A DNA stretch of 64,000 nt from Methyloversatilis sp. RAC08 (GTDB taxonomy: Bacteria; Pseudomonadota; Gammaproteobacteria; Burkholderiales; Rhodocyclaceae). This document shows, piece by piece, positions 13,102 through 26,291 of this stretch. Position numbers and translations under genes: made by a program. The stretch lies in the NCBI RefSeq assembly GCF_001713355.1, contig NZ_CP016448.1:3100001-3164000 (forward strand), given 5' to 3'. Within the stretch, counting starts at the first letter, position 1. Each line of letters opens with the position of its first letter. Under the pieces are notes generated by a model, which was not told the origin of the DNA, did no database searches, and saw only the letters and a list, made by a program, of their open reading frames with translations.

Positions 13102-14925
13102 TCAGGCCAATGCCGACACGCACTGTGTGGAGCGACGCAACTTGTCGGCGAGATCCCGCGCAAGGTTCTCCAGTATGACGCTCCGGAATTCGGGGTTTTC
13201 CAACGAAATGCGGTCGAAATCTCGCACCTCGAGAACGCTGCACCGTACATCACTGTCGGCATAAACGGTGGCAGTACGCGTCTTCTGGCCCAGTAACACC
13301 ATTTCGCCGAAATTCGTACCCGGACCGAGCGAGGAAATGCGCTGGTGCTTGCCGTCTTCCGTCGGTATCAACACGCTGATCTGACCCGCTTCGATGAAGT
13401 ACACGCGGCCGTCGCACGCTTCGCCCACCGTTAGAATCTGCGCGCCAGCGGCGAACTGCTGCGGGTAGGCAGCCTCATGCACCTTTTGCATGAGTGCTTC
13501 GGGCATGCCGGTGAATAACAGCGAGTCCGCCAGCGGTCGATACGACATCGCGCTGCAGGATGCCTCACCGATCAAGCGGTTCTCGCACCATTCGACCGCC
13601 AGATCGTTGTCTTCGAAGTGCAGTACGCCTCGGTCGCCACTGGGTGTCGTCTTGCGCAGACGTTCCTTTACGGGAGAGCCATCACGGATGCGCGAGCACA
13701 CGACGGCGATGCCCTCGTCCATCAGACCGAGTCGCGCCTGGTGCAGCAGCGTGGCCGCGCTCTCGGACATGCCATCTACCTGATTCATGTCCAGGATGAA
13801 ACTGTGCGTTTCGGCCGCGAGCCCTATCATGCGCCGGATGACGTATTCGATGCCATCCACCCCCAGAAAGCCGTGCAGGCAGAGGTACTTGATGCGATGC
13901 GCGTTGGCAGTGAGCCAGACCCGCGTATCGCCGGAGGTCTGCCGGCGAGACGGCGCGTCGGCAGCGGTGTAGAGGCGGCCCAGCGTCATGCGCGGGTCGC
14001 CTGCCGGGGTGAATACGTGCAGGTTGAAGTCTTTCGACAGATGCTTGCACGCCTCGATCCCACGCACGCTGTTGCCTTTTTCATCCAGCAGCGGGGAAAA
14101 GATGGCGATGCCGAAGCGCCCCGGCAGCACGGCGATGATACCGCCGCCGACGCCACTCTTTGCCGGCAGACCGATTTCGTAAAGCCAGCTGCCCGCATAG
14201 TCATACATGCCGCAGGTTGCCATGACGCTGAGCACGCGTTCGACGTGCTCGGCCGGCAGCGCGCGCCTGCCTGTGACCGGGTGTACCCCGCCGTTTGCCA
14301 GCGTGGCGGCCATGAAGCCCAGGTCGCGGCAGCTCACTTCGATCGAGCACTGGCGGAAGTAATTTTCAAGCGACGCCATCGGTTCGCCGTCGATGATGCC
14401 GAAGTTCTTAAGCATCCAGGCGATCGCGCGGTTGCGAAAGCCGGTCGCGCTTTCCGAGCGGTATACCGACTCATCAACGCTGACTTTCCTGCCCACGAAG
14501 GTAGAGATCGAGTCCTCTATCCTTTGCCATTGAGCTTCGGGAGTGTCACCGCAAACAAGGCTCGTGGTGGCGATTGCACCGGCGTTGATCATCGGGTTGA
14601 TCGGCGCACCAGTTTGGGGATCAAGACTGATTGAATTGAAGGCGTCGCCACTCGGTTCGACGCCGACCTTGCTGCTGACGAAATCGAGCCCGCGGTCGGC
14701 CAGTGCCGTGCCATATACGAAAGCCTTGGAAATCGACTGGATCGTGAACACCTCGTCGGCATCGCCGACCGAATAGACCGTGCCATCCATGGTCACCAGA
14801 CAGATGCCGAACCAGGCCGGGTCGGCCTTGGTGAGTTCAGGGATGTAGCTGGCAAGCGCGCCGTCCTGAATACCGGCAAGACGGTTGTGCAAGCATTCCA
14901 GGTAGGCCTGGATCGGAGATTGCAT
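13102..14925 (-). CDS. glsA: Glutaminase fused to STAS and cyclic-nucleotide-binding domains
   Basis: 607-residue three-domain protein. Residues 1 to about 308 form a serine-dependent glutaminase that would deamidate glutamine to glutamate and ammonia. The catalytic S-x-x-K is QSISKAF (Ser64/Lys67), with NPMINAGAI and YAGSWLYEIGLPAKSGVGGG as further family blocks. About 335-440 is a STAS fold (FILDMNQVDGMSESAATLLH). About 465-595 is a cNMP-binding domain whose phosphate cassette (FGEMVLLGQKTRTATV) keeps the Gly-Glu and the Arg. E. coli-type glutaminases stop near residue 310, so this is a regulated long form. The ATG at 14925 has an AAGGA site. It is divergent from a nucleotide cyclase. Confidence 0.93.
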   Translation of the reverse strand: MQSPIQAYLECLHNRLAGIQDGALASYIPELTKADPAWFGICLVTMDGTVYSVGDADEVFTIQSISKAFVYGTALADRGLDFVSSKVGVEPSGDAFNSISLDPQTGAPINPMINAGAIATTSLVCGDTPEAQWQRIEDSISTFVGRKVSVDESVYRSESATGFRNRAIAWMLKNFGIIDGEPMASLENYFRQCSIEVSCRDLGFMAATLANGGVHPVTGRRALPAEHVERVLSVMATCGMYDYAGSWLYEIGLPAKSGVGGGIIAVLPGRFGIAIFSPLLDEKGNSVRGIEACKHLSKDFNLHVFTPAGDPRMTLGRLYTAADAPSRRQTSGDTRVWLTANAHRIKYLCLHGFLGVDGIEYVIRRMIGLAAETHSFILDMNQVDGMSESAATLLHQARLGLMDEGIAVVCSRIRDGSPVKERLRKTTPSGDRGVLHFEDNDLAVEWCENRLIGEASCSAMSYRPLADSLLFTGMPEALMQKVHEAAYPQQFAAGAQILTVGEACDGRVYFIEAGQISVLIPTEDGKHQRISSLGPGTNFGEMVLLGQKTRTATVYADSDVRCSVLEVRDFDRISLENPEFRSVILENLARDLADKLRRSTQCVSALA

Positions 14926-15121
14926 GGTGAGGTAGTCCTTTTCTCCCTTGTGACCATGGGTTAAGGCAAATCCCGTGCCCACTGCACTTCATCGGTGCAG
15001 ACGGATGGCATGGCAGCATGATCGATTGCTGGTGATCGCGGCGCCACCCACCCGTGCCGGACGGGATGCGCCCTGCCGTATGATCCGATTCAACTCCGAC
15101 AGATGGCTCCATACGCAATCA

Positions 15122-17383
15122 ATGAATAGCCGCAAAAGACGTGCGCAGAAGGGCCTGGCGATCGGTCTGCTGACTGCGTTGGTGGGCATCACCGTCAGCG
15201 TGATCGACAGTGGCGGCAGCTTCGAGCGCAGCGCCGGCCTGTCGTGGCTATTCCGTCTCCGTGGTCCGGTCACCCCGCCGCAGGAGGTCGTGGTGGTCGC
15301 TATCGACGGCCGCACGGGTGAACATCTCGGTCTGCCCAGTCAGCCGCGGGACTGGCCGCGCACCGTGCATGCTGGTCTGGTCGACGAACTGACCCGTCGT
15401 GGTGCGTCGGCCATCGTGTTCGACATGCAGTTCGACAAGTCTAGGGTGAGCGCCGATGACGTTGCATTTGCCGCGGCCGTCGACCGTTCCGATCGTGTGG
15501 TGCTGATCGAACTGGTGACCGGCAAGCGTCAGCCGGTCACCGACGCCGAAGGTCGCCCGTCGGGATCGATCTGGGTCGAGCAGCTAGTCCAGCCGTTGCC
15601 ATCACTGGTCGACGCCGCAAAGGGGCTGGCTACCTTCCCGCTGCCCAAGATCGATGCAGCCGTCTACGAGTTCTGGGTGTTCAAGGAAAGCGTCGGCGAC
15701 GCGCCGACATTGCCGGCAGCTGCGCTGCAGGTGCACGCGCTGAAGCTTTACCCGATCTGGATGGGCATGCTGCGCGAACTGGGCGTCGCCGGTCTTGATG
15801 ACCTGCCTGCTGATCTGGCCGGGCTTGGCAAGGCGGCCAGCCTGCGCACCATCATGGGGCGTTTTCGCGAACGATTCGAAAATGACCCAACGGCAGGCGA
15901 ACGCCTGCTGGCCCTAATCGAAGCCCGCTCCGACCTACCGACGGACCAACGGGATCTGCTGCGCGCACTGTGTGCGCTGTACAGCGGCGACCCGCACCGC
16001 CTGCTGAATTTCTATGGCCCTCCGGGTACCGTGCCGACCGTGTTTTATCAGGATCTGGTTGATGCGCAGGGCTCGGGTACTGGCCGCAGCACTTTCGATT
16101 TCCGCGGCAGGACGGTTTTCGTGGGTTTCGCCGACCTGTACGACCCGGGTCACCCGGATCGTTTTTACACGGTGTTCACGAACGATGACGGCGTCGATCT
16201 GAGCGGGGTGGAGATCGCCGCCACGGCGTTCGGCAACCTGATGACCGACCGCAGCATCCGCATGCTCGACAGCGCGCAGACCGCGGGGGTGCTGTTTGCC
16301 TTCGGCCTCTTCGCCGGTGCGCTGGCCTATCTGTTGCCGGCGCTCGCCGGAGTACCGCTGGTCATCGCACTGGCCGGACTCTATGCGCTGGCCGCGCAGT
16401 TGTCGTTCAACGCCACGGATCTGTGGATGCCGCTCGCCACGCCGCTGCTGGTGCAGCTTCCGCTCGCGCTCTTCCTCGGTCTGTCGGCTCAGTACCTGCT
16501 GGAACGCGGCCGCGGCCGACGCATGAGCAAGGCGCTCGGCTACTACGTGCCGGAGAACGTCGCTCGCGACCTGACTGACCGCCAGGTGGATCCGCATGCC
16601 TTCAATCGCGTGGTCTATGGCACCTGCCTGGCGACCGACATGTCCGGCTTTTCGACCATTTCCGAACAGTTGCCGCCGGATCAGCTGGCGGTATTCCTCA
16701 ACGACTACTTCGATACGCTTGCCGGTGCGCTGAAGCGACAGAAAGTCGATGTAACTGAATTCCGGGCCGATGCCATCATGTGTGCCTGGACCGCTGACAA
16801 GCCCGATGCAGCCGTGCGCCGTCAGGCGGTATTGGCCGCGCTGGGGGCGTCGGACGCGATCACCGGCTTCAAACAGCGGCATCCGATGCTTAAGGCGTCG
16901 CTGCGCGTGGGGTTGGAGGCGGGAAATTTCTACGTCGGCCACGCAGGTGGTGGCGGTCACTTCGTATTCAGCATCGTCGGCGACACAGCCAACACCGCAT
17001 CGCGTATCGAGGGTCTGAACAAGCACATCGGCACGCAGATTCTCGCCACGCAGGCGGTTGTCGATGGCCTGGATGGCTTCCTGCTGCGCCCGCTCGGCGA
17101 TTTTCAGTTTGTCGGCAAGTCGGGCGCCATTCCGATCTTCGAGGTGATGGGTACCGAGACCACCGTGTCGGACATGCAGCGCGCGTTGTCGCGCCAGTTC
17201 GAGGGGGCGCTCGCGATCTTTCACAGCGCCCGCTGGGATGCCGCCACCGCCGCGTTCGAAGCGCTGCTGCAGGCGTTTCCGGACGATGGACCGAGCCTTT
17301 TCTATCGCACGCGCTGCGGCATGTATAGCGCCGGTACGCCTGCGCCAGAGGATGCGCGCGTGATCAGGATGGATGCCAAATAG
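15122..17383 (+). CDS. CHASE2-domain adenylate/guanylate cyclase
   Basis: 753-residue membrane receptor cyclase. There is one N-terminal membrane helix (GLAIGLLTALVGITVSVID), a large periplasmic CHASE2 sensor to about residue 380, then three membrane helices (about 385-460). A cytosolic class III cyclase domain follows (about 490-680) and a short helical tail. Metal-binding aspartates are visible in ATDMSGFSTISE and EFRADAIMCAW; GDTANTASRIEGLNK is the catalytic Asn/Arg block. It would make cAMP (or cGMP) in response to an envelope signal. The start is uncertain: ATG 15122 or 15080. Divergent from the glutaminase with a cNMP domain. Confidence 0.9.
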   Translation: MNSRKRRAQKGLAIGLLTALVGITVSVIDSGGSFERSAGLSWLFRLRGPVTPPQEVVVVAIDGRTGEHLGLPSQPRDWPRTVHAGLVDELTRRGASAIVFDMQFDKSRVSADDVAFAAAVDRSDRVVLIELVTGKRQPVTDAEGRPSGSIWVEQLVQPLPSLVDAAKGLATFPLPKIDAAVYEFWVFKESVGDAPTLPAAALQVHALKLYPIWMGMLRELGVAGLDDLPADLAGLGKAASLRTIMGRFRERFENDPTAGERLLALIEARSDLPTDQRDLLRALCALYSGDPHRLLNFYGPPGTVPTVFYQDLVDAQGSGTGRSTFDFRGRTVFVGFADLYDPGHPDRFYTVFTNDDGVDLSGVEIAATAFGNLMTDRSIRMLDSAQTAGVLFAFGLFAGALAYLLPALAGVPLVIALAGLYALAAQLSFNATDLWMPLATPLLVQLPLALFLGLSAQYLLERGRGRRMSKALGYYVPENVARDLTDRQVDPHAFNRVVYGTCLATDMSGFSTISEQLPPDQLAVFLNDYFDTLAGALKRQKVDVTEFRADAIMCAWTADKPDAAVRRQAVLAALGASDAITGFKQRHPMLKASLRVGLEAGNFYVGHAGGGGHFVFSIVGDTANTASRIEGLNKHIGTQILATQAVVDGLDGFLLRPLGDFQFVGKSGAIPIFEVMGTETTVSDMQRALSRQFEGALAIFHSARWDAATAAFEALLQAFPDDGPSLFYRTRCGMYSAGTPAPEDARVIRMDAK

Positions 17384-17407
17384 CCACGCTGGCCGCCCCG
17401 TCAGCGA

Positions 17408-18067
17408 TCAACCCTGCCGGGCACTGGCATCGCATTGTTCGCGGATCAGCTGTTCAAGCCGGGCGATGTTGCGCTGCTTGCCCGCGTCACGGAGCGTGCG
17501 TGCGGCGTCGCTGAAGTAGCGGTGGCTCGCGAGAAACGCGAGCTGGGTCGCCAGCCACTCGGGCCACGACACCGGATAGCCGAGCGCTGCGCGCTCCCGC
17601 CATAGTGCCTCGCTGGTGTCGAAGAAATCCTCCCGGCCGAGTGAATCCAGGTCCGCGTCGGCAAGCAGTGCTTCGTGCGCGTTCTGCGGCGACTGCGGGA
17701 GCTGGGTCGCCAGAATCATGCCGGAGATCCGTTCGATGTCGCGGGCGCCGAAACCGAAACCAGGCAGTACGTCATCAATGACACTTACGCCGATCTGCTC
17801 ATGCCCGATGTGGTTCTGCACGTGGCCCAGGTCGTGATAGGCCGCTGCAACTTCGAGCACTTGCCGATCGGCGTCGGTCAGACCTGCCAGCCGGGCCAGC
17901 CGTGACACTGCTGGCAGTACATCGTGTTCTGTGTGACTGACGTCATGATAGGAAAAAAACGGGGGCAGCTCGGCACGCAGGCGCTGCAGCGCGTAGGCCA
18001 CGGCGCCTGCGTAGTCAGGTTGGGGCTGTGCATCGGTTCGAAGCGGGGTCACATTGTCTTCCGCCAT
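17408..18067 (-). CDS. HD-domain phosphohydrolase, unknown substrate
   Basis: 219-residue single-domain HD-superfamily protein. The metal ligands fit H...HD...D: YHDVSHTEHDV, then AAAYHDLGHVQNHIGHE, and later LADADLDSLG. The AYHDLGH pattern is seen in nucleotide- and cyclic-nucleotide-hydrolysing HD enzymes. There is no membrane segment or HD-GYP motif. It converges with the cyclase gene (24 bp apart) and lies 42 bp downstream of the cysteine-rich secreted protein gene. A role as phosphodiesterase for the neighbouring cyclase product is possible but purely inferred. Confidence 0.82.
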   Translation of the reverse strand: MAEDNVTPLRTDAQPQPDYAGAVAYALQRLRAELPPFFSYHDVSHTEHDVLPAVSRLARLAGLTDADRQVLEVAAAYHDLGHVQNHIGHEQIGVSVIDDVLPGFGFGARDIERISGMILATQLPQSPQNAHEALLADADLDSLGREDFFDTSEALWRERAALGYPVSWPEWLATQLAFLASHRYFSDAARTLRDAGKQRNIARLEQLIREQCDASARQG

Positions 18068-18109
18068 GGCGGGCGATGCAGGCCCGGGTGACCGGGCCCT
18101 TACCGCCGA

Positions 18110-18916
18110 TCAGTACAGATAGCACTTCCGGATACCTGCGACTGTCGTGCAGAAATACGGGTCGTTGTTCAGCTCGATGTGTGTCGTCACTTCCCCTGCG
18201 GGCAGCGGCGGCTGGCGATCTGCCTTTTCCGCCGCTGTCAGAACACAGGCACCTTCCTCACCGGCCGCGAGCTCGGGGTTGCACTCCTGCAGCACCGAAT
18301 TCGGGTCGTTACACACGCAGCATGTGTCACTGCCGTCGTTCAAACCGTAGAACGGCTGATCCAGTTCGAAATTGCAGACCAGCGCACGTCCGCCGGTGGG
18401 ACAGGACACACCGGTCTGATCGAGCGTCGCTTCGAGGTTGCACGACTTGATGGGGGTGGCGAGCGGCGGCTGCGGTGCCGCGTTGCCCAGGCCGTAGCAC
18501 AGGCTGATGGCGCTGACGGTCTGCGGAACGCCGCCGACCACCAGCTGCATGTTCGAGTCGGCTGTGACGCCGCCGGAGGGATAGATGATGACCGAAACGT
18601 TGCGGTTGGATTTGAGGATCGCGAAATCGACCGGCGTCGTCGCGGCGGAAAAGCCGACAACCTTCCCGCCGGAGACCGTATAGCTCGCCGATTCGCCCAC
18701 CGTGTCGGCATCGCGCGGGTTTTCACTGCCGATGACCACGCCGGAGGTCTGGGGCGAATTCGTGCCCATCTGAATGATCAGATTATTGGCGGCGTAGTCG
18801 GCACACTGCTTGTTTCCTTCCGCCGGAAACACGGTGACTGCCTTGTCCGAGGCGAGGGTGAATGTTGCGTGGCTCATGATCAGTGCGGTGATCAGATTCC
18901 TGCCGAGTGTATGCAT
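18110..18916 (-). CDS. Secreted cysteine-rich protein, unknown
   Basis: 268-residue exported protein with a likely signal peptide (about residues 1-22, ending near TFTLAS). The mature part begins with a beta-rich region, and the C-terminal 130 residues hold most of the cysteines (for example SDTCCVCNDPN, VSCPTGGRALVCNF and a final FCTTVAGIRKCYLY), suggesting disulfide bonding in the periplasm or outside. I do not recognise a family. It sits 68 bp downstream of the FecR-TPR-barrel gene on the same strand, so the two are probably co-expressed and may act together at the envelope. Confidence 0.72.
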   Translation of the reverse strand: MHTLGRNLITALIMSHATFTLASDKAVTVFPAEGNKQCADYAANNLIIQMGTNSPQTSGVVIGSENPRDADTVGESASYTVSGGKVVGFSAATTPVDFAILKSNRNVSVIIYPSGGVTADSNMQLVVGGVPQTVSAISLCYGLGNAAPQPPLATPIKSCNLEATLDQTGVSCPTGGRALVCNFELDQPFYGLNDGSDTCCVCNDPNSVLQECNPELAAGEEGACVLTAAEKADRQPPLPAGEVTTHIELNNDPYFCTTVAGIRKCYLY

Positions 18917-18984
18917 GGTGTGTGACCTCTTTATTTGTGATGTGGTGACGACGGTGTCAATCCGGACGAATCCGGAATTCGGAA

Positions 18985-21900
18985 TCAGAAACCCGCTGTG
19001 AATCGGGCCATGACGATGCGCTCCGGAAAGTACGGGCCGATGACCGGCTCGTCGCGGAACTCGCGGTAGCTGTCGTCCTGGTAACGGAAATCACTGTCGA
19101 ACAGGTTCTTCACGGCGAGACTGAGCACGCCACGACGCTGTGGCAGCCGGTAGCCGATCGACGTGTCGACAACGACGAACTGGTCGTTGCCCGATGCCTG
19201 GGTCGCGGTCAGCGAACGGCGCACTTCCTGGTCGACATAGGTCGCCGACAGCCCGGCGAACCAGCCAGAAGGCGCGAAATAGCTCAGGCGCACCGGCACG
19301 CTCCAGGTCACGACGCTTTCCGGCAGGTTGCTGTCCGCGGTCGCGATGCCGCGCTCGCTGCGATAGCGGTCGTAGGCCAGCTCGGTGTGCAGCGCAAGGC
19401 GCGAGGTGATCGTCCAGTCCGCATAGACCCGGTGCAGCTGTTCCGAGCGTTCTTCGGTTATCCACGAGCCGGCAAGCGCATCGAGCAGCGGCTCGTCCAT
19501 GTCGCGGTGCGTGAATTCCACGCCGGTGCGCACCTGCTGATGCGCGCGCCAGTCCAGCCCGATGCCGTAGCGCTTCGAGCGCGTGCCGTTGAGGTCGTCG
19601 AACAGCTGGTTGAAGCCGGCAATCTGGGTCGGTTCGAGCGTGCGATTGCCTGTCAGCGCCGGCTTGACCACCTGGAACGCGGCTGCGCGCAGCCGCAGCG
19701 CGGGATTCACGTCCCATTGCACGCCGAATTTCGGGTTCAGGCGCCGGTCCTGAAAGGAGTCCTGCTCGAAATTGTCGTAGCTGGCGCCCAGCGTCCAGAC
19801 CACTGACGGGTTCGGCCTAAGGTTCACATAGGCGTAGGCCCGCGGGTGGCGGGTCGGAAACTGTTCCTGGCCCGAAATGGCCAGCAGGTTGCCCAGAATC
19901 GAGTCGTCGATCGACAGATCGACGTTGTCGGTCCGGCGCGATTTGTTCCATGCGGCACCTATGACCAGATTCGACGTGTCCATGGCATGCAGCAGCTGGC
20001 CTTCGACCTGGTCCGACTTTGAACGGGAGCGTTGCCTGTTGGTCGAGGTCGTCGTGCCAAGCAACGGAGGCAGATCGATGACTTCACTCAGGTTCTCTTC
20101 ACGCGTGCCATGGATGTAGGACAGCAGCAAGTGCGTCTGCGGCGCCGGCGAGTAACGCAGGCCTACACGGGTGGTTTCCTGCTTGCGCCCGATGCGCCGG
20201 CTGGCGATGAAATCGTCCGGGTTGAAGTTGAAGGCCAGATCGCCCTCGGTCGATTCGCGGTGGCGGTACTCCGCCTGCACATTCAGCGTGTCGCTCAATG
20301 CAGCTTGTGCAAACGCGGTGTACACATCCTGCTCAAGCCCGTTGTTGCGACGCCAGCCGTCCGTTTCATAATTGAGTGCGCCCAGGCTGAAAGAGTAGCG
20401 GTCGTACAGACCCGAAACCACCGCTTCACCGCCACGCGTGCCGTTGCTGCCCGCCTGCGCCGATGCGCTGAACTGGGCCTGGTTGCGTTGGAACAGCGGG
20501 GTGAATTCGTTGAAGCCGGCACCGGCCGGACCGCCCGAGGTAACGATGTTGAGGTTGGTTTCGCTGGTGCTCGGCTGGACCGGATTGATGTTCAGGTCCT
20601 GCAGCATCATGGCCTGCGTCAGTTCGCTGACCCGAGCAATCTCGCGCCGTCGGGTGTTCTGGTGAATGTCCGACAGGAACCGGTGGGCCGAGGCATCGGC
20701 CGGATCGAGTGCCAGTGATCGGCTGGCTTCAACGGCGCCCAGGTCGGGGAACCCAAGGTCGTTGTAGACGCGCGCCACGCTGGTGCCGCGTGCTGCCTGA
20801 TCCTTGTCGAGCAGCAGTCGACTGCGGTACACGGCACGTTGATCGTTGAGCGCGGCCGACGCTTCCAGATCGATCAGCGCATCCACCGGCCGATTTGCGG
20901 TTTGCTTGCGGATACCGTCATAGAGGAAGGCTGTCGGATCGAATGGGTCGAGCGACTTGGCGATGTCGAACTGTTGGTCGTCCAGCGCGTCGCGCCGCTC
21001 CTCGAAATAAGCTTTGCCCAGATAGGCGCGCAGCAATGCCTGGTTCGGATCGAGCGCCACGGCCAGCTCCAGGTCGGCGCGTCCGGCTTCCAGTTCGCCG
21101 CTGCTGATGCGGGCCAGACCGAGGCCCAGACGGGCCAGAGGATCCGACGGATCGAGTTCGATGGCGCGCCGGAAGGCAACGTCGGCGGCGTCATCGCGAT
21201 ACTCCGCAAGCGATGCGAAACCCAGTACGAGCTGGGCGCGGGCCAGCTCCGGGGCGAGTTCCGCCGCCTTGCCTGCGGAAAGCCGCGCACGGTGCTTTTC
21301 GCCCAGCATCAGCTGCAGCTCGCTCAGACGCGCCCAGGCCAGCGCGGCGTCGGGCGAACGCTCGACTGCTGCAAGCAGCGTGTCGCGCGCCGCCTCGATG
21401 CGGAAGTCCGCTTGCTGCGAGTAAGAAAGCGCGATGCGCGTCGCCGGAGTGTCGTTCAGCGCCACCCCCTTTTCGGCTGCGGCAAGCGCCAGGCTGCGTT
21501 CATTGCGCACCACATGGATGATGGCCCGCAGCGCGTACGCAAGACCGGACTGCTTATCGCGTGCCAGTGCAACGTCGATTTCGCGCGCCGCTTCGTCCTG
21601 CCGCCCGACGGCGAGCAACTGCGCTGCGCGTTCCAGCGGTGAATTCGCTTCGCCGCCTGCAGCCAGGATCGGCGGGTAATGGAGCGACCACTGCACTGAG
21701 TCGCGTGGCTTGACAAGCGTACGCACGGTCGGCGCATCGCCCGCGCGGGTCGCGGCCTGATCGCCTGGCTTGAGCGCGACCGAGCCGCGCTCGTTGGCCG
21801 CGACGACGCGGCCCTCCAGAACCAGAATGGAAGATTGTTCATCGTCAACCCGTACTTCGAATTCGGTCCCCTCGATCGACCCGTTCAGGTAGGGCGTGTT

Positions 21901-22287
21901 GACTGACATGAGTCGTGGCTTGCGGCTGAATGATTGCAGCGCGCCCTTGACCAGCTCGACGAAGGACCGCTCTTCCTTCTTGCCGCTGATTTCGAGCAGA
22001 CGGATGGTCGTGTTCTGGTCCAGCCGCATCACCGCTTCGTTAGCCAGCACCACGGCGGCACGCCCAGACTTGCCCACCCGGATCGAATCACCGCGGCAAA
22101 GGATCTGTTCCGGCTTCGCTGGTTGCCAGCCAGTCTGCGCGCCCGTTTGCACCTGTACCTGGCCTTCGATGGATGCAAGGCGTCCGGCAGGTTCCTTGCA
22201 GGTGCCGGCCGCGAGTGAGGAAAGCGGGAAGGATGAGAAAACGACCGACAGAAGCAAGGCTGATGGGCCCCCAGCTGATGTGCGCAC
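18985..22287 (-). CDS. FecR-domain / TPR / outer-membrane beta-barrel protein
   Basis: 1100-residue envelope protein. A GTG start at 22287 has a GGGGAGA ribosome site and gives a signal peptide (LLLSVVFSSFPLSSLAA, cleavage near 27). Residues about 35-155 are a FecR-like domain (GRLASIEGQVQVQTG, SVNTPYLNGSIEGTEFEV). About 210-560 carry TPR repeats (for example AFRRAIELDPSDPLARLGLG). From about 620 to the end, alternating beta-strands with aromatic ends run to a C-terminal Phe (RIVMARFTAGF), the usual beta-barrel insertion signal. There is no TonB box or plug. An upstream in-frame extension to 22737 looks non-coding. A sigma-54-like promoter lies just upstream. Confidence 0.85.
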   Translation of the reverse strand: MRTSAGGPSALLLSVVFSSFPLSSLAAGTCKEPAGRLASIEGQVQVQTGAQTGWQPAKPEQILCRGDSIRVGKSGRAAVVLANEAVMRLDQNTTIRLLEISGKKEERSFVELVKGALQSFSRKPRLMSVNTPYLNGSIEGTEFEVRVDDEQSSILVLEGRVVAANERGSVALKPGDQAATRAGDAPTVRTLVKPRDSVQWSLHYPPILAAGGEANSPLERAAQLLAVGRQDEAAREIDVALARDKQSGLAYALRAIIHVVRNERSLALAAAEKGVALNDTPATRIALSYSQQADFRIEAARDTLLAAVERSPDAALAWARLSELQLMLGEKHRARLSAGKAAELAPELARAQLVLGFASLAEYRDDAADVAFRRAIELDPSDPLARLGLGLARISSGELEAGRADLELAVALDPNQALLRAYLGKAYFEERRDALDDQQFDIAKSLDPFDPTAFLYDGIRKQTANRPVDALIDLEASAALNDQRAVYRSRLLLDKDQAARGTSVARVYNDLGFPDLGAVEASRSLALDPADASAHRFLSDIHQNTRRREIARVSELTQAMMLQDLNINPVQPSTSETNLNIVTSGGPAGAGFNEFTPLFQRNQAQFSASAQAGSNGTRGGEAVVSGLYDRYSFSLGALNYETDGWRRNNGLEQDVYTAFAQAALSDTLNVQAEYRHRESTEGDLAFNFNPDDFIASRRIGRKQETTRVGLRYSPAPQTHLLLSYIHGTREENLSEVIDLPPLLGTTTSTNRQRSRSKSDQVEGQLLHAMDTSNLVIGAAWNKSRRTDNVDLSIDDSILGNLLAISGQEQFPTRHPRAYAYVNLRPNPSVVWTLGASYDNFEQDSFQDRRLNPKFGVQWDVNPALRLRAAAFQVVKPALTGNRTLEPTQIAGFNQLFDDLNGTRSKRYGIGLDWRAHQQVRTGVEFTHRDMDEPLLDALAGSWITEERSEQLHRVYADWTITSRLALHTELAYDRYRSERGIATADSNLPESVVTWSVPVRLSYFAPSGWFAGLSATYVDQEVRRSLTATQASGNDQFVVVDTSIGYRLPQRRGVLSLAVKNLFDSDFRYQDDSYREFRDEPVIGPYFPERIVMARFTAGF

Positions 22288-22326
22288 GCAGTGTCTCCCC
22301 GCCTTTTTGTTTTGAGCCCCATGCTC

Positions 22327-22343
22327 CGCAAGAATCCTGCCAA
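22327..22343 (-). promoter_or_regulatory. sigma-54-like promoter of the FecR-TPR-barrel gene
   Basis: On the minus strand the site reads TTGGCAGGATTCTTGCG. It has GG and GC separated by exactly 10 bases, as required for the -24/-12 elements, and differs from the consensus mainly after TTGGCA. The predicted transcription start near 22315 would leave a leader of about 28 nt before the GTG start, which supports that start choice. Confidence 0.6.
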
Positions 22344-22726
22344 ACAGATTTCTGATCTGAGGTCGCGGGCTTCCATCCCCGGCATAGAGGATGGGAGACC
22401 CGTTCCCGGCGCCGTGGATTCGTGAAGGATCTGGTCGCTCAAGCCCCTGACCCACCTTCTCGAGATCATCCGGTTGAGCCCTTTTCGGCCGCGTTTCCTT
22501 ATCAGTTGAGGAGAGCAAGGGACTAGGTCCTGAAATTTGAAGTGTCTGCACCGCAGCGTGAAATCGGACACAAAAATTCATGTTCCAAGCGGCTGGTTTC
22601 ACCGGTGTCGTGGCCGCCTGCAATCGTTCGGCACGGATCGATGCCTCTGAATGGTGCGTTTTCATGGGTATGCGCCTCATCCTGGGGCTGGGTGTTTCGC
22701 CGTTGCTGCGCCCGATGTGTCCGTGT
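22344..22726. other. Intergenic region without a convincing gene
   Basis: The gap between the SpoIIE-family gene and the FecR-TPR-barrel gene is about 440 bp in total. A frame in phase with the downstream gene stays open through it, but the translation is low-complexity, has no ribosome site and precedes the real signal peptide. No T-run terminator is seen. Enhancer sites for a sigma-54 activator would be expected here, but none can be identified by eye. Confidence 0.5.
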
Positions 22727-24022
22727 TCATCGAGCACCCGGTGCGCGAGTGGTGCGACGCAGCGCCAGAAGCGTGCAGTCGTCCTCGGGCTGATGCGGTG
22801 CCGAGAAATCCGCGACTGCCTTGCGTATTCCCTCGATCAGGCCCTCGAGGGTGTCCATGGCCCGTAGCGTGACCACCTCGACAAGACGCTCGCTGCCGAA
22901 TTCCTGCCGGTCGGGGGACTCGGCTTCCGTCACGCCGTCCGTGAAGCAGAGCAGCGTCTCATCGGAACCGAGCACGATCTCCCGTGTCGCGTAGGCTGCG
23001 CCTGGAATGGCACCAATCAGGGCGCCTTTCGGCAGCGGCAGGAAAGAAGGCGTGCCGTGGCGAACCAGTAACGGTGCACAGTGCCCGCCGTTGGCGTATG
23101 CGAGCCGACCCGTATCCACCTCGAGGATGGCGCAGAAGAGGGTCACGAACATGTTCGTGTCGTTGCCGGCACATAGTTGCTCGTTAAGTTCCTGCATGAG
23201 GCGTCCGGGCTCCCGCACTCCCATCGCGGTCACCCTCATCAGACCAACTACCCGAGCCATGAACAGGGCAGCCGGAACGCCATGGCCCGAGACATCGCCG
23301 ACGCAGAAGAATAGTTGTCGGTGGTCGAGAAAAAAGGCATCGAAGAGGTCGCCGCCCACGGCGGAGGCCGGTTCCATGAGCGCTGCGATATCGATGTCCT
23401 CCCGGTCGGGAAACAGCGGGCGCTGATGCGGCAGCATGCTCGCCTGCAACTGACGTGCGATGTCGAGTTCCTGGCGCAGATAGTCGAGCTCCAGTCGCCG
23501 GCGTTGCGACTCCAGCATCACCAGATTGCTTCGGCGCATCCGCGCGGCAAGGATGGTCAGCAGATTGCGGGCAAGCTCCGGAATGACGCTCAGTCGCTGA
23601 AAGAAGACAGTCTGCGGCAGACGCAGCACGCGCGACGTGGTCATCGACATGACCAGCGCAGAGACGGGTTGGCCGTCAATTGCGGACAGTTCGCCGACGG
23701 TCTCACCTGGCGTGATCGTGACCGCCGGCCCGGCAGTCAGGTTGTCGCTCACGAACGCTCCGAGTTCGCCCGACAACAGGAGAAAGACGTTGTCGTTCAA
23801 GCTACCTGGGTGCAGCAGGGGCATGCCCGGCAGCAGCGTCAGTACCTCGCAGTCCGCAATCGCCTCCTGGACGATCGATGCGTCGACATTTCGGAAGAGG
23901 GCGAAAGATGCGATGCCTGAAAGACGCCGCTCCGCGGTCCCGATGCGGTTGTCCGGTTCGCGGTGCAGTGCTTCGGAGCGACGATCACGGGAGCGTCCGA
24001 AACGCGTGGTCTGGATCGGCAC
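22727..24022 (-). CDS. SpoIIE/RsbU-type PP2C phosphatase with N-terminal cNMP-like domain
   Basis: 431-residue protein. The first roughly 140 residues form a cyclic-nucleotide-binding-like barrel (PGETVGELSAIDGQPVSALV). A coiled-coil linker follows (RRRLELDYLRQELDIARQLQ), then a SpoIIE PP2C domain with its aspartates in GGDLFDAFFLD, CVGDVSGHG, CFTDGVTEAE and EDDCTLLAL. It should dephosphorylate the STAS protein encoded two genes upstream. The barrel has Gly-Glu but carries PVSA where cAMP binders have P-R-[ST]-A, so canonical cAMP binding is doubtful. The GTG start at 24022 lies 5 bp after the HATPase stop and has an AGGA site; an ATG at 24064 is the alternative. Confidence 0.9.
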   Translation of the reverse strand: MPIQTTRFGRSRDRRSEALHREPDNRIGTAERRLSGIASFALFRNVDASIVQEAIADCEVLTLLPGMPLLHPGSLNDNVFLLLSGELGAFVSDNLTAGPAVTITPGETVGELSAIDGQPVSALVMSMTTSRVLRLPQTVFFQRLSVIPELARNLLTILAARMRRSNLVMLESQRRRLELDYLRQELDIARQLQASMLPHQRPLFPDREDIDIAALMEPASAVGGDLFDAFFLDHRQLFFCVGDVSGHGVPAALFMARVVGLMRVTAMGVREPGRLMQELNEQLCAGNDTNMFVTLFCAILEVDTGRLAYANGGHCAPLLVRHGTPSFLPLPKGALIGAIPGAAYATREIVLGSDETLLCFTDGVTEAESPDRQEFGSERLVEVVTLRAMDTLEGLIEGIRKAVADFSAPHQPEDDCTLLALRRTTRAPGAR

Positions 24023-24027
24023 GGAAA

Positions 24028-24504
24028 TCAGTCCTGTTTTCCGCTCGCCGGCTCGTCCCAGCAAACCTTGAAAGTCAGATGGTTGCGATCTGAGTGGCGG
24101 CCATATTCCAGCGCATCCGCGAAGGCGCGCATCATCGTGAGACCAAGTCCACCCGGTTCGGCATCGTAAAGATTGGCCGGGCGTGGTTTTTGCCGGACCG
24201 ACAGCGGGTCGAAGGCGAACCCCGAATCGATCACCGTAACCGAAGCTTCACCTCGGCAGCCCTCGCTTCGAGTGACGAAAACAAGGCGCACCTCATGCTC
24301 ATGCGCGGCCGGCCCGCCGTGCGCGATTACGTTTGCTAGTGCTTCGTCCAGGCACTGATCGAGTCGCATGATCTGTTCGACAGGCAGGCCGTGATCCGAT
24401 CCTGTCGCTGCGAGCCAGGCGGACGCAATTCGAAGATCATCGATGACAGCCCGGATGACGCACTCCGAATGCAGGCTGGGGCAGCGCTGCGCCGACGTAT
24501 TCAT
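24028..24504 (-). CDS. Anti-sigma-type serine kinase (RsbW-like HATPase)
   Basis: 158-residue GHKL ATPase of the RsbW/SpoIIAB type, which phosphorylates the antagonist STAS protein and sequesters a partner. The N-box is DEALANVIAHG, the G1 box DSGFAFDP and the G2 box GGLGLTMM. The start ATG overlaps the STAS stop codon in a TGATG arrangement, indicating translational coupling. It is the middle gene of STAS-HATPase-SpoIIE. No sigma factor gene is in the window, so the output partner is unknown. Confidence 0.9.
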   Translation of the reverse strand: MNTSAQRCPSLHSECVIRAVIDDLRIASAWLAATGSDHGLPVEQIMRLDQCLDEALANVIAHGGPAAHEHEVRLVFVTRSEGCRGEASVTVIDSGFAFDPLSVRQKPRPANLYDAEPGGLGLTMMRAFADALEYGRHSDRNHLTFKVCWDEPASGKQD

Positions 24505-24848
24505 CAGGCAAGCGCGGCAACCCGTGCTTCCGCCATGTCCTTGCAGATCGGAATCAGTGCGTCGATGCCGGTGCTTTCCAGTACCGAGCCCACCGCCTGA
24601 TTGCCGCCGATGAACAGCACCAGCCGCCCGCCGCGCTGTTGCTGCGCCTTCGCATTCATGATCAATGCCCGAATGCCCATCGAAGCCAGAAAGCTGACCT
24701 CGCTGATGTCCACTACGATGCGGCGCTCGACCGATGCAGCAAGCGCCGTGAAACGGGTTGCAATCGCATCGGTGCCCGGAACGTCGAGGCGACCGCTGAT
24801 CGAAATGCACCGAAGGGTTTCAGTCACGTCTTCGAATTCGATGGACAT
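24504..24848 (-). CDS. STAS-domain anti-sigma-factor antagonist (RsbV-like)
   Basis: 114-residue single STAS domain. The phospho-acceptor region is VVDISEVSFLASMGIRALIM, with the Ser of ASMG in the usual position. Beta-strand GRLVLFIGG and helix GSVLESTGIDALIPI follow, as in SpoIIAA/RsbV. I chose the ATG at 24848; an in-frame extension of 18 codons upstream is poorer. First gene of the partner-switch operon; its stop overlaps the next start. Confidence 0.9.
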   Translation of the reverse strand: MSIEFEDVTETLRCISISGRLDVPGTDAIATRFTALAASVERRIVVDISEVSFLASMGIRALIMNAKAQQQRGGRLVLFIGGNQAVGSVLESTGIDALIPICKDMAEARVAALA

Positions 24849-25218
24849 TGGGATTCCGGTTTTTTGGTTAAGGAGCGCAACAGGCAAGTCTGCTAACTGC
24901 ACGTGACACGCAGATGAAGAATTTGTGAATGAACCGGAGCGCCATGCGCGCGGCCGAATCGCGTATGGCGCAAGGATGGGTGTGCCACCTGATGTTCCGC
25001 CCGCTGTCGAAGATATTTACACGGTCACGGCGCGGGCATGAAGAAGCGGCAAGCTTGCGCGCGGCGGAAAGATTGAAGACCCCGGTCGGGTCGGCTTTTG
25101 GTGCACGCGCGGAACTTGATCCACATACAGGAAGTTCTTTTTAATCAGATCGCTGCGTGCAAGCGCCGCAGATCGACGCTGGGGCGGGTGCGAGTAACGC
25201 CGGGGTAGCCGCATCGTT
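24849..25218. other. Divergent intergenic region, no gene seen
   Basis: About 430 bp in all lie between the STAS gene (minus strand) and a PEP-CTERM gene (plus strand). No ORF with a ribosome site and plausible composition was found. The right end holds a sigma-54-like site (next entry). The promoter of the STAS operon should be in the left part, but I cannot place it. Confidence 0.5.
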
Positions 25219-25280: not shown

Positions 25281-26291
25281 ATGGATGCAACACGAAAGGC
25301 ACACCTGATTCACGTTGTGGCTGCGGTTGGCGCGTTGCTGTGCGCGACCGCATCGCCGGCCAGAACGCTCTCATTCGGTAGTGTTGCGACATCGACCGCC
25401 TGGACCTACTCATGGTCCAGCGCGGAACGTTACGCGATCGTTCTTGAAAGACTGGTTGTTGATTCGCCGCCGTGCGGCGCTTCGAGCGACTGGTGCTGGG
25501 AAGAGGTCTATCCGGATCAATGGGAACAGTCATCGACTGCGCTCGCCAACGTGGTCGTGGAGGACAGCGTCTCCGGCTCGCCCCTGCTGAGAGTTGATAC
25601 GGCGTGGGCGTCGGCCCGGGCGAATACCAGCCTCGGTTCGAACAAGGCCTATGCGATTGCCCGTGACAGTTCGGAATTCGATTTCGAACTGCTCGACCAG
25701 AGTGGCAATGTGACCTACGCCAGCACCGGATCGTCCTGGTCGCGAGCGCGCGCGGAAAGCTCCTATAACGAGCCGTTCGTTGCGTCCGGGTCAGGCGAGG
25801 CGACATTCCAGTTTGCGGTTGAACGGCATGCTGTGGCGCGGGGTCCGGACGGATTGATCAGCTTCAGCGACCCGGTCAAATCCTTCACCTACTACCGATC
25901 ACTTTTCGGCGACGCCAACGCAGAAGGTGCGCTTGACGTGATGCTGTACAGGCTCGACGGCGCCGCGCCGCTTCTGGTCAGCCGGGAGACTTTCGACATC
26001 GGAGTCGATGATGGTGTCGAAAACTTTTCGTTCGCGGCACAGCTCGAGGACGGCCTGCAGTACGCGTTCATCGTGTCGCTGAGTGCTTTCGCGATCTGGG
26101 ATGGCGCAATGGATCTTTATGGCACCGCGACGCTGACCGGCATCCAGGTGCAGGCAGGGCAGTCGCTGGCCTTCAGTTCCGGCAGCCTGTACAGCGTGAC
26201 CGCGGTACCCGAACCGCAAACGTGGGCCATGCTGATTGCGGGCTTGATGCTGTGCGCCGGTATTGCGAGGCGTCGCAATCCAGTCGGATGA
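25281..26291 (+). CDS. PEP-CTERM sorting-domain protein
   Basis: 336-residue exported protein. The signal peptide is about residues 1-28 (VAAVGALLCATASPA), the body is beta-rich and Ser/Ala-rich, and the C terminus is a canonical PEP-CTERM tripartite signal: VPEPQTW, a hydrophobic helix (AMLIAGLMLCAGIA) and basic RRRNPVG. Such proteins are processed by exosortase EpsH/XrtA and are linked to exopolysaccharide and floc formation. No exosortase gene is in the window. The body matches no family I recognise. Confidence 0.9.
   Translation: MDATRKAHLIHVVAAVGALLCATASPARTLSFGSVATSTAWTYSWSSAERYAIVLERLVVDSPPCGASSDWCWEEVYPDQWEQSSTALANVVVEDSVSGSPLLRVDTAWASARANTSLGSNKAYAIARDSSEFDFELLDQSGNVTYASTGSSWSRARAESSYNEPFVASGSGEATFQFAVERHAVARGPDGLISFSDPVKSFTYYRSLFGDANAEGALDVMLYRLDGAAPLLVSRETFDIGVDDGVENFSFAAQLEDGLQYAFIVSLSAFAIWDGAMDLYGTATLTGIQVQAGQSLAFSSGSLYSVTAVPEPQTWAMLIAGLMLCAGIARRRNPVG

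Follow-up and report, generated by a model that had tools for sequence, protein, structure and literature searches.

A candidate outer-membrane-to-cytoplasm signalling module with a glutaminase as proposed cyclic-nucleotide effector in Methyloversatilis sp. RAC08

The locus and its genes

The 3.94-Mb, single-contig genome of Methyloversatilis sp. RAC08 contains, in the 64-kb stretch analysed here (positions 3,100,001 to 3,164,000 of NZ_CP016448.1; hereafter the window, in whose own numbering positions are given), a block of eight genes in the order GSC (-), CHASE2 cyclase (+), HD protein (-), Cys-rich protein (-), FecR-TPR-barrel protein (-), SpoIIE phosphatase (-), HATPase (-) and STAS protein (-). 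GSC is used as shorthand for a fusion protein of glutaminase, STAS and cyclic-nucleotide-binding (CNB) domains. Five of these genes, encoding the CHASE2 cyclase, the HD protein, the Cys-rich secreted protein, the FecR-TPR-barrel protein and GSC, make up a module that recurs in other genera of the family and that, on balance, probably signals from the outer membrane to the cytoplasm in the manner of the NsrA/CHASE2-cyclase systems, with an enzyme, GSC, as its effector. The features of the module in the window are as follows, with the basis of each assignment in brackets.

13102..14925, minus strand: GSC, with glutaminase, STAS and C-terminal CNB domains, the proposed effector (Pfam, profile comparison, structure relatives, residues)
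14926..15121, no strand: divergent intergenic region of ~0.2 kb between the likely GSC and cyclase starts (start estimates)
15122..17383, plus strand: CHASE2 receptor cyclase, class III, with Glu/Val at two base-reading positions (Pfam, residue alignment)
17408..18067, minus strand: HD phosphohydrolase, a likely cyclic-nucleotide phosphodiesterase (Pfam, structure model, motifs)
18110..18916, minus strand: Cys-rich protein with an N-terminal signal-like stretch and no known Pfam family, the module marker (Pfam scan, profile surveys)
18985..22287, minus strand: FecR-TPR-beta-barrel outer-membrane protein, NsrA-like; the start is guessed as 22287, within a frame that stays open to 22737 (Pfam, tree)

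The domains named in the initial annotation of the eight genes were recovered by Pfam and, for the STAS domain of GSC, by hhalign. Within the module, Pfam gave Glutaminase and cNMP_binding on the GSC frame (13102-14982), CHASE2 and a class III cyclase on the frame 14975-17383, HD on 17408-18067 and, all in one large protein, FecR, TPR and a TonB-type barrel on 18985-22737; no Pfam family was found on the Cys-rich frame (18110-18916). The likely starts, which correct the frames first assigned, are 14925 for GSC, 15122 for the cyclase and 24848 for the stand-alone STAS protein.

Conservation of the module

That the cyclase, FecR-TPR-barrel, HD, Cys-rich and glutaminase genes should be clustered in related genomes had been put up for refutation in the initial annotation, and such clustering was found. 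From Pfam and from tblastn of the window proteins on the fetched loci, all five genes stand together in seven loci, namely the window, L059, L065, L086, L043, L044 and L045, the last three of which belong to two other genera of the family. Three gene orders are represented: GSC-cyclase-HD-Cys-barrel (window, L059), cyclase-HD-Cys-barrel-GSC (L065, L086) and HD-cyclase-Cys-barrel-GSC (L043-L045). The nearest named relative found, Methyloversatilis sp. XJ19-49, has the same block and a GSC that is 92% identical. The barrel protein was matched in 12 of the 121 genomes of a family sample, closely so in four of them, at 52-100% identity (G000, G024, G085 and G030), and the same four genomes were returned by a profile of the Cys-rich protein, with GSC on the same contig and < 4 kb from this marker in each, albeit that the profile was built from GSC-bearing loci and may favour such loci. 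The five-gene module is rare but tightly kept, and the linkage of its genes is beyond chance.

Repeated pairing of GSC with CHASE2 cyclases

The association of GSC with CHASE2 cyclases extends beyond the module and is seen in several bacterial lineages. A full-length GSC is present in 13 sampled genomes (eight from the family sample and six from an order sample of 399, G000 being in both). Five of the 13 (G000, G024, G085, G030, G398) carry a CHASE2 gene no more than 10 kb away, vs ~0.25 expected from their own CHASE2 counts, which corresponds to P ~6e-6, or 1e-4 if the congeners G024 and G085 are counted once. The counts are lower bounds, since only three candidates per genome were scored in the order sample and some contigs were short.

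A wider set of 86 GSC genes was assembled from the window, seven family genomes and 78 of 80 loci, the latter being the best 80 of 426; the GSC fragments L096 and L115 and seven CNB-only matches of < 500 amino acids were left out of the 86-row counts. One of the loci, L093 (CAMCQE010000007.1), is titled as a Klebsiella pneumoniae metagenome-assembled genome and is nearly the same as L094, titled Gammaproteobacteria, such that its species label may be wrong. When the neighbours of the 86 genes were clustered, with no family chosen beforehand, the commonest cluster was the CHASE2 cyclase, in 21 loci, to which tblastn added L043, L060 and L062, missed by frame picking, giving 24. Small-FecR and OmpA-like clusters came next with nine loci each, the OmpA-like cluster being mixed in that some of its longer members resemble other outer-membrane proteins. 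A FecR-type protein, found by cluster or by tblastn, is also present in 15 of the 24 loci with GSC and a CHASE2 cyclase. Pfam on representatives gave CHASE2 with a cyclase in all four GSC-linked neighbours scanned (L084, L097, L100, L136), OmpA in one protein and FecR in another; some cyclase frames (L060, L063, L138) are clipped by contig ends, such that CHASE2 itself was not seen in every GSC-linked cyclase. GSC is also linked to FecR and a CHASE2 cyclase in Tropicimonas and Pseudothioclava (L129, L136).

The phylogenetic trees bear on how this pairing arose. The seven module cyclases are one clade in a tree of 30 cyclases, with support 100, and the seven module barrel proteins are likewise one clade, again with support 100, in a tree of 16. 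A single clade of module GSCs, on the other hand, is rejected in the tree of 48 of the 86 GSCs (approximately unbiased test, p-AU 2e-84), it being the case that a FastTree of all 86 came first, followed by a better model on the 48, and that the tested clade was named by cyclase type after the first tree had been seen. The GSCs of L043-L045 lie far from that of the window, and well-supported GSC branches force two label changes, that is two gains, or one gain and one loss. As the cyclases and barrels are one clade each and the GSCs are not, GSC has probably joined the module more than once, or been swapped for a distant GSC.

The GSC protein

In the form starting at 14925, the glutaminase domain occupies residues 22-305 of GSC. 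The STAS domain was identified by an hhalign profile-profile match (95.3%, E 2e-8), Pfam reporting none at E 0.01. Among the 60 of 156 structure matches listed, solved glutaminases match the first half of the protein and cAMP-/cGMP-binding domains of the PKA/PKG-type CNB kind match its end, with no solved structure spanning the whole. All 86 copies retain the glutaminase's catalytic Ser and Lys. Moreover, the CNB domain contains the sequence FGE...R(S/T)A, which we take to be the cyclic-nucleotide phosphate-binding cassette, with the pocket Glu in 85/86 and the pocket Arg in 84/86 copies. The nucleotide-binding domain that the initial annotation placed in the glutaminase thus has an intact-looking pocket.

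The STAS domain of GSC is of a different character. At the position of SpoIIAA Ser58, which is assumed here to be the reference phospho-site of STAS domains, the window protein has Glu, and Glu or Asp occurs in 31 of 39 near relatives; Ser or Thr is found in 16/86 copies overall and in 0/39 of the near relatives.

The cyclase, the HD protein and the Cys-rich protein

In the residue alignment, the window cyclase has the class III metal Asp pair and the transition-state Asn/Arg. At the two base-reading positions, which in adenylate cyclases we take to be Lys and Asp, all seven module cyclases have Glu and Val. With this substitution, cyclic AMP (cAMP), which the initial annotation had named as the product, is only one candidate messenger: the product may be cyclic GMP (cGMP), or be selected another way. 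In GSC-linked cyclases at large the type varies between Glu/Val, Arg/Asp and Lys, that of L138 having Arg at a base-reading position.

The HD protein was modelled with a mean predicted local distance difference test score (pLDDT) of 83. The best Foldseek matches of the model are the HD hydrolases 2pq7 (E 3e-4), 2pjq and YpgQ, together with the human phosphodiesterases PDE1, PDE5 and PDE10 (E ~0.01); comparison of its profile with solved structures by sequence gave weak matches, the best (E 0.0027) being a Cas10 chain. All seven module copies contain YHxxxHTxxDV, HD and a later Asp, and YHxxxHxxxDV with HD and a later Asp is presumably a class I-like cyclic-nucleotide phosphodiesterase signature. 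Judged from motif and model, the HD protein is likely to be a cyclic-nucleotide phosphodiesterase. Four GSC loci (L100:11867-13249, L104:4888-6258, L124:11858-13243, L080:2489-3892) encode members of a second HD-like family, ~460 amino acids long and bearing YHT and FHD motifs, and the two copies scanned (L080, L100) gave no Pfam family match. The Cys-rich protein gave a model too poor for a fold search, with a mean pLDDT of 40.

Which protein reads the messenger

The main reason for reading GSC as the effector lies in the sister loci, in which a barrel protein and cyclase are found without GSC. Nine matches of this kind were obtained, and eight are considered here (L046-L053), a short match in G093 not being included. 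In five of the eight (L046, L048, L049, L050, L052) a regulator of the CRP family is encoded beside the cyclase; none was matched in L051 and L053 by the searches made, and L047 is cut by a contig end. In the window it is GSC that takes the divergent position beside the cyclase, and a CRP-type regulator is not the linked reader there. In other words, GSC stands where the CRP-family reader stands in the sister loci. CNB proteins with ~220 extra residues of unknown kind also recur, in four GSC loci (L065:3306-4370, L086:11950-12990, L084:683-1705, L097:3123-4196), and this family possibly reads the messenger as well.

The signalling path that we propose would begin with the FecR-TPR-barrel protein, which would respond to a cue at the cell surface or within the outer membrane. 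From there the signal would pass through the FecR domain of this protein, in the periplasm and in partnership with the secreted Cys-rich protein, to the CHASE2 domain of the cyclase, and the cyclase would then make a cyclic nucleotide, either cAMP or cGMP. Binding of this nucleotide to the C-terminal CNB domain of GSC would alter glutaminase activity, such that glutamine would be converted to glutamate and ammonia on demand, and the HD protein would terminate the signal as a phosphodiesterase. In this scheme the domains, their linkage across different gene orders, the recurrence of GSC beside CHASE2/FecR cyclase sets and the retained catalytic and pocket residues are observed; we infer the direction of the signal, the binding, the gating, the phosphodiesterase activity and the sensed cue.

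Several findings weigh against such a path. The module is rare, in that the Cys-rich marker was found in 1/399 order genomes and 1/398 phylum genomes, each time the window's own, and three congeners are without GSC. In 8 of the 13 sampled GSC genomes there is no CHASE2 gene within 10 kb. Similarly, at 62 of the 86 GSC loci the sequence covered shows no CHASE2 cyclase; many of the loci are truncated at contig ends, and 35/85 have near-full 10-kb flanks. The similarity of the HD protein to phosphodiesterases is weak (E ~0.01), other HD enzymes scoring equally or better. The trees were built quickly and contain some long branches. Finally, two Arthrobacter GSCs (L131, L137) are without the pocket Arg and retain the glutaminase residues; the same two proteins constitute a natural control for nucleotide gating.

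The large share of GSC loci in which no CHASE2 cyclase was seen also favours the best-surviving alternative, which is that GSC is a general reader of the cyclic nucleotide pool of the cell, placed by the cyclase as a matter of convenience, with the barrel-cyclase pair serving mainly CRP-type regulators elsewhere in the genome. In this regard, the CHASE2 cyclases of Sinorhizobium meliloti work with the CRP-type regulator Clr (PMC5498481). Against this stands the recurrence of GSC beside this module as well as beside other sets of CHASE2 and FecR genes, and we regard the general-reader explanation as unlikely.

The partner-switch operon

To the right of the module lie three further genes of the kind known from partner-switch systems, all on the minus strand.

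22727..24064, minus strand: SpoIIE/PP2C phosphatase with a degenerate cNMP-like N-terminal domain, accessory (Pfam, alignment)
24028..24504, minus strand: HATPase, an RsbW/SpoIIAB-like kinase, accessory (Pfam, alignment)
24504..24848, minus strand: stand-alone STAS protein with the phospho-serine motif ASMG, accessory (Pfam, alignment)

Pfam gave SpoIIE and cNMP_binding on the frame 22727-24064, HATPase_c_2 on 24028-24810 and STAS on 24504-24902. The initial annotation joined these genes to the rest in a full loop, in which the nucleotide would also switch the SpoIIE phosphatase, and the HATPase and SpoIIE proteins would set the phosphorylation of both STAS domains, that of GSC included. In favour of a loop of this kind, a STAS-HATPase-SpoIIE set stands beside the module in Methyloversatilis (window, L059), and in L060, L061, L062 and L092, which are one GSC clade, a less similar set accompanies GSC and a cyclase of the Arg type; L135 has SpoIIE and HATPase-like genes beside GSC, with no STAS match. 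The full set joins GSC in two lineages only. Among the eight family-sample genomes with a full-length GSC, a SpoIIE gene of this kind is beside GSC only in the window's own. Weak matches to the SpoIIE query (< 30 bits) occur in L122 and L084. The closest relatives of the operon itself (L054-L056) have no GSC, CHASE2 cyclase or barrel within the fetched 11-18 kb.

Of the 12 rows aligned for the cNMP-like domain of SpoIIE, 10 have no pocket Arg, that of the window among them; in L062 an Arg is one residue off, and of the pair in L135 one has the Arg in place and the other has no CNB domain. This argues against a phosphatase that reads the nucleotide. As for the two putative phospho-acceptors, the stand-alone STAS proteins keep the phospho-serine in 9/9 rows, as had been supposed, whereas the STAS domain of GSC, with its acidic residue, does not have it. 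What stands of the loop is the clustering of the five genes and the nucleotide pocket of GSC; nucleotide reading by SpoIIE, the phospho-site in GSC, cAMP as the product and the partner switch as part of the core find no comparable support. The loop as a whole appears quite unlikely, and the operon is treated here as an accessory add-on rather than as core. A second STAS/HATPase/SpoIIE operon, ~38% identical and also with a degenerate cNMP-like domain, is present in the same genome (L058, G000:C1:1822590-1823810), with no GSC within the fetched 16 kb.

Genomic setting

The block is an accessory island. In the congener G070 both of its flanks are kept, the aldehyde dehydrogenase gene to the left and the transporter genes to the right, and the large reading frames that lie between them match nothing in the first 45 kb of the window. 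This variable site, together with the three congeners without GSC, gives some ground for supposing that the genes are neighbours merely through sharing one island, but the five genes stand together in other genera and in other orders, and the linkage of GSC to CHASE2 genes is far above expectation, such that this explanation is very unlikely. An anti-phage set of the Pycsar kind, made up of a cyclase and a CNB-bearing effector, is highly improbable: PADLOC models of the Pycsar cyclase and effector do match, but over no more than the cyclase or CNB portions that are shared, Pfam gave neither a TIR nor another toxin domain in GSC, and the presence of CHASE2, FecR and outer-membrane components suggests sensing of the exterior.

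On its right, the block is flanked by a gene for a PEP-CTERM protein (25281-26291), for which no counterpart was matched in the comparison loci, that of the nearest relative (L059) ending before that point. Elsewhere in the genome there are three more CHASE2 proteins, at G000:C1:504944 (L003), beside which lies a FecR-like stretch, and at 2750453-2755986 (L057). A CRP-like palindrome near the divergent promoter between GSC and the cyclase was sought and rejected: such palindromes with two or fewer mismatches number 14 in the window against 19 expected by shuffling, and none falls in 14926-15121.

Relation to known systems

The closest known system is that of S. meliloti, comprising NsrA, the CHASE2 cyclases CyaK, CyaD1 and CyaD2, and Clr (PMC7529298, PMC13001267 and PMC5498481). 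In PMC13001267 and PMC7529298, NsrA is described as an outer-membrane beta-barrel receptor which works with inner-membrane CHASE2 cyclases, and PMC5498481 names CyaK (SMb20776) and the CRP-type regulator Clr. In a stretch of S. meliloti pSymB (L139), a FecR-TPR protein of 1243 amino acids adjoins a CHASE2 cyclase of 667 amino acids, Pfam giving FecR and TPR for the former, with no barrel model among the 11 listed; the pair is presumably NsrA and CyaK. Both systems have a large FecR-TPR protein encoded beside a CHASE2 class III cyclase. They differ in that the S. meliloti reader is of the CRP type, whereas the window has a CNB-bearing glutaminase along with the Cys-rich and HD proteins, and in that the barrel proteins are far apart in sequence.

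Two other clusters share some of these parts. According to PMC9239204, a cluster in Campylobacterota contains a CHASE2 cyclase, a phosphodiesterase, a FecR outer-membrane protein and a TPR protein, that is the same kinds of part, with no glutaminase mentioned in section 9 of that work; in the window, by contrast, FecR, TPR and barrel are fused in one protein. The Burkholderia BiofilmReg operon, described in PMC5192318, likewise couples FecR with a CHASE2 sensor, although the CHASE2 protein there is a histidine kinase and not a cyclase.

For GSC itself, the NCBIfam model PRK00971.1-4 (429 positions) covers the glutaminase and part of the STAS region and stops short of the CNB domain; the model also matches the stand-alone STAS protein, weakly and below its cut-off. 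For the solved salt-tolerant glutaminase 3agd (456 amino acids), which we take to be from Micrococcus luteus, the listed match covers only the glutaminase domain of GSC. The acetyltransferase Pat is CNB-gated and, like GSC, has its CNB domain fused to an enzyme, albeit a different one, and its NCBIfam model matches the GSC CNB domain weakly; we know of no dedicated sensor cyclase beside the Pat gene. No paper on a glutaminase with STAS, CNB or CHASE2 was found among the open-licence papers searched, in keeping with the view in the initial annotation that the combination is undescribed. Within those papers, the sensor half of the module is known, being of the NsrA/CHASE2 type, and the use of an enzyme as the messenger reader appears to be new.

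Biological significance

In bacteria, cAMP and cGMP are generally regarded as acting via CRP-type transcription factors. In the locus described here, and repeatedly elsewhere, a surface-sensing cyclase set stands beside an enzyme of central nitrogen metabolism in which a cyclic-nucleotide pocket is retained. A bolder form of the proposed path, which we put forward tentatively, as possible rather than probable, is that GSC is a dedicated cyclic-nucleotide-gated glutaminase, by which an outer-membrane sensor would set the release of glutamate and ammonia in the cytoplasm directly through the CHASE2 cyclase and without any gene regulator in between, the messenger being possibly cGMP instead of cAMP, and that such systems were assembled several times in different bacterial lineages. 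If the path proposed above is true, then a signal from outside would give direct and fast control of glutamate and ammonia, and a reader would have been named for some of the orphan CHASE2 cyclases. Moreover, what the CHASE2/FecR systems sense would become testable by a simple enzyme readout.

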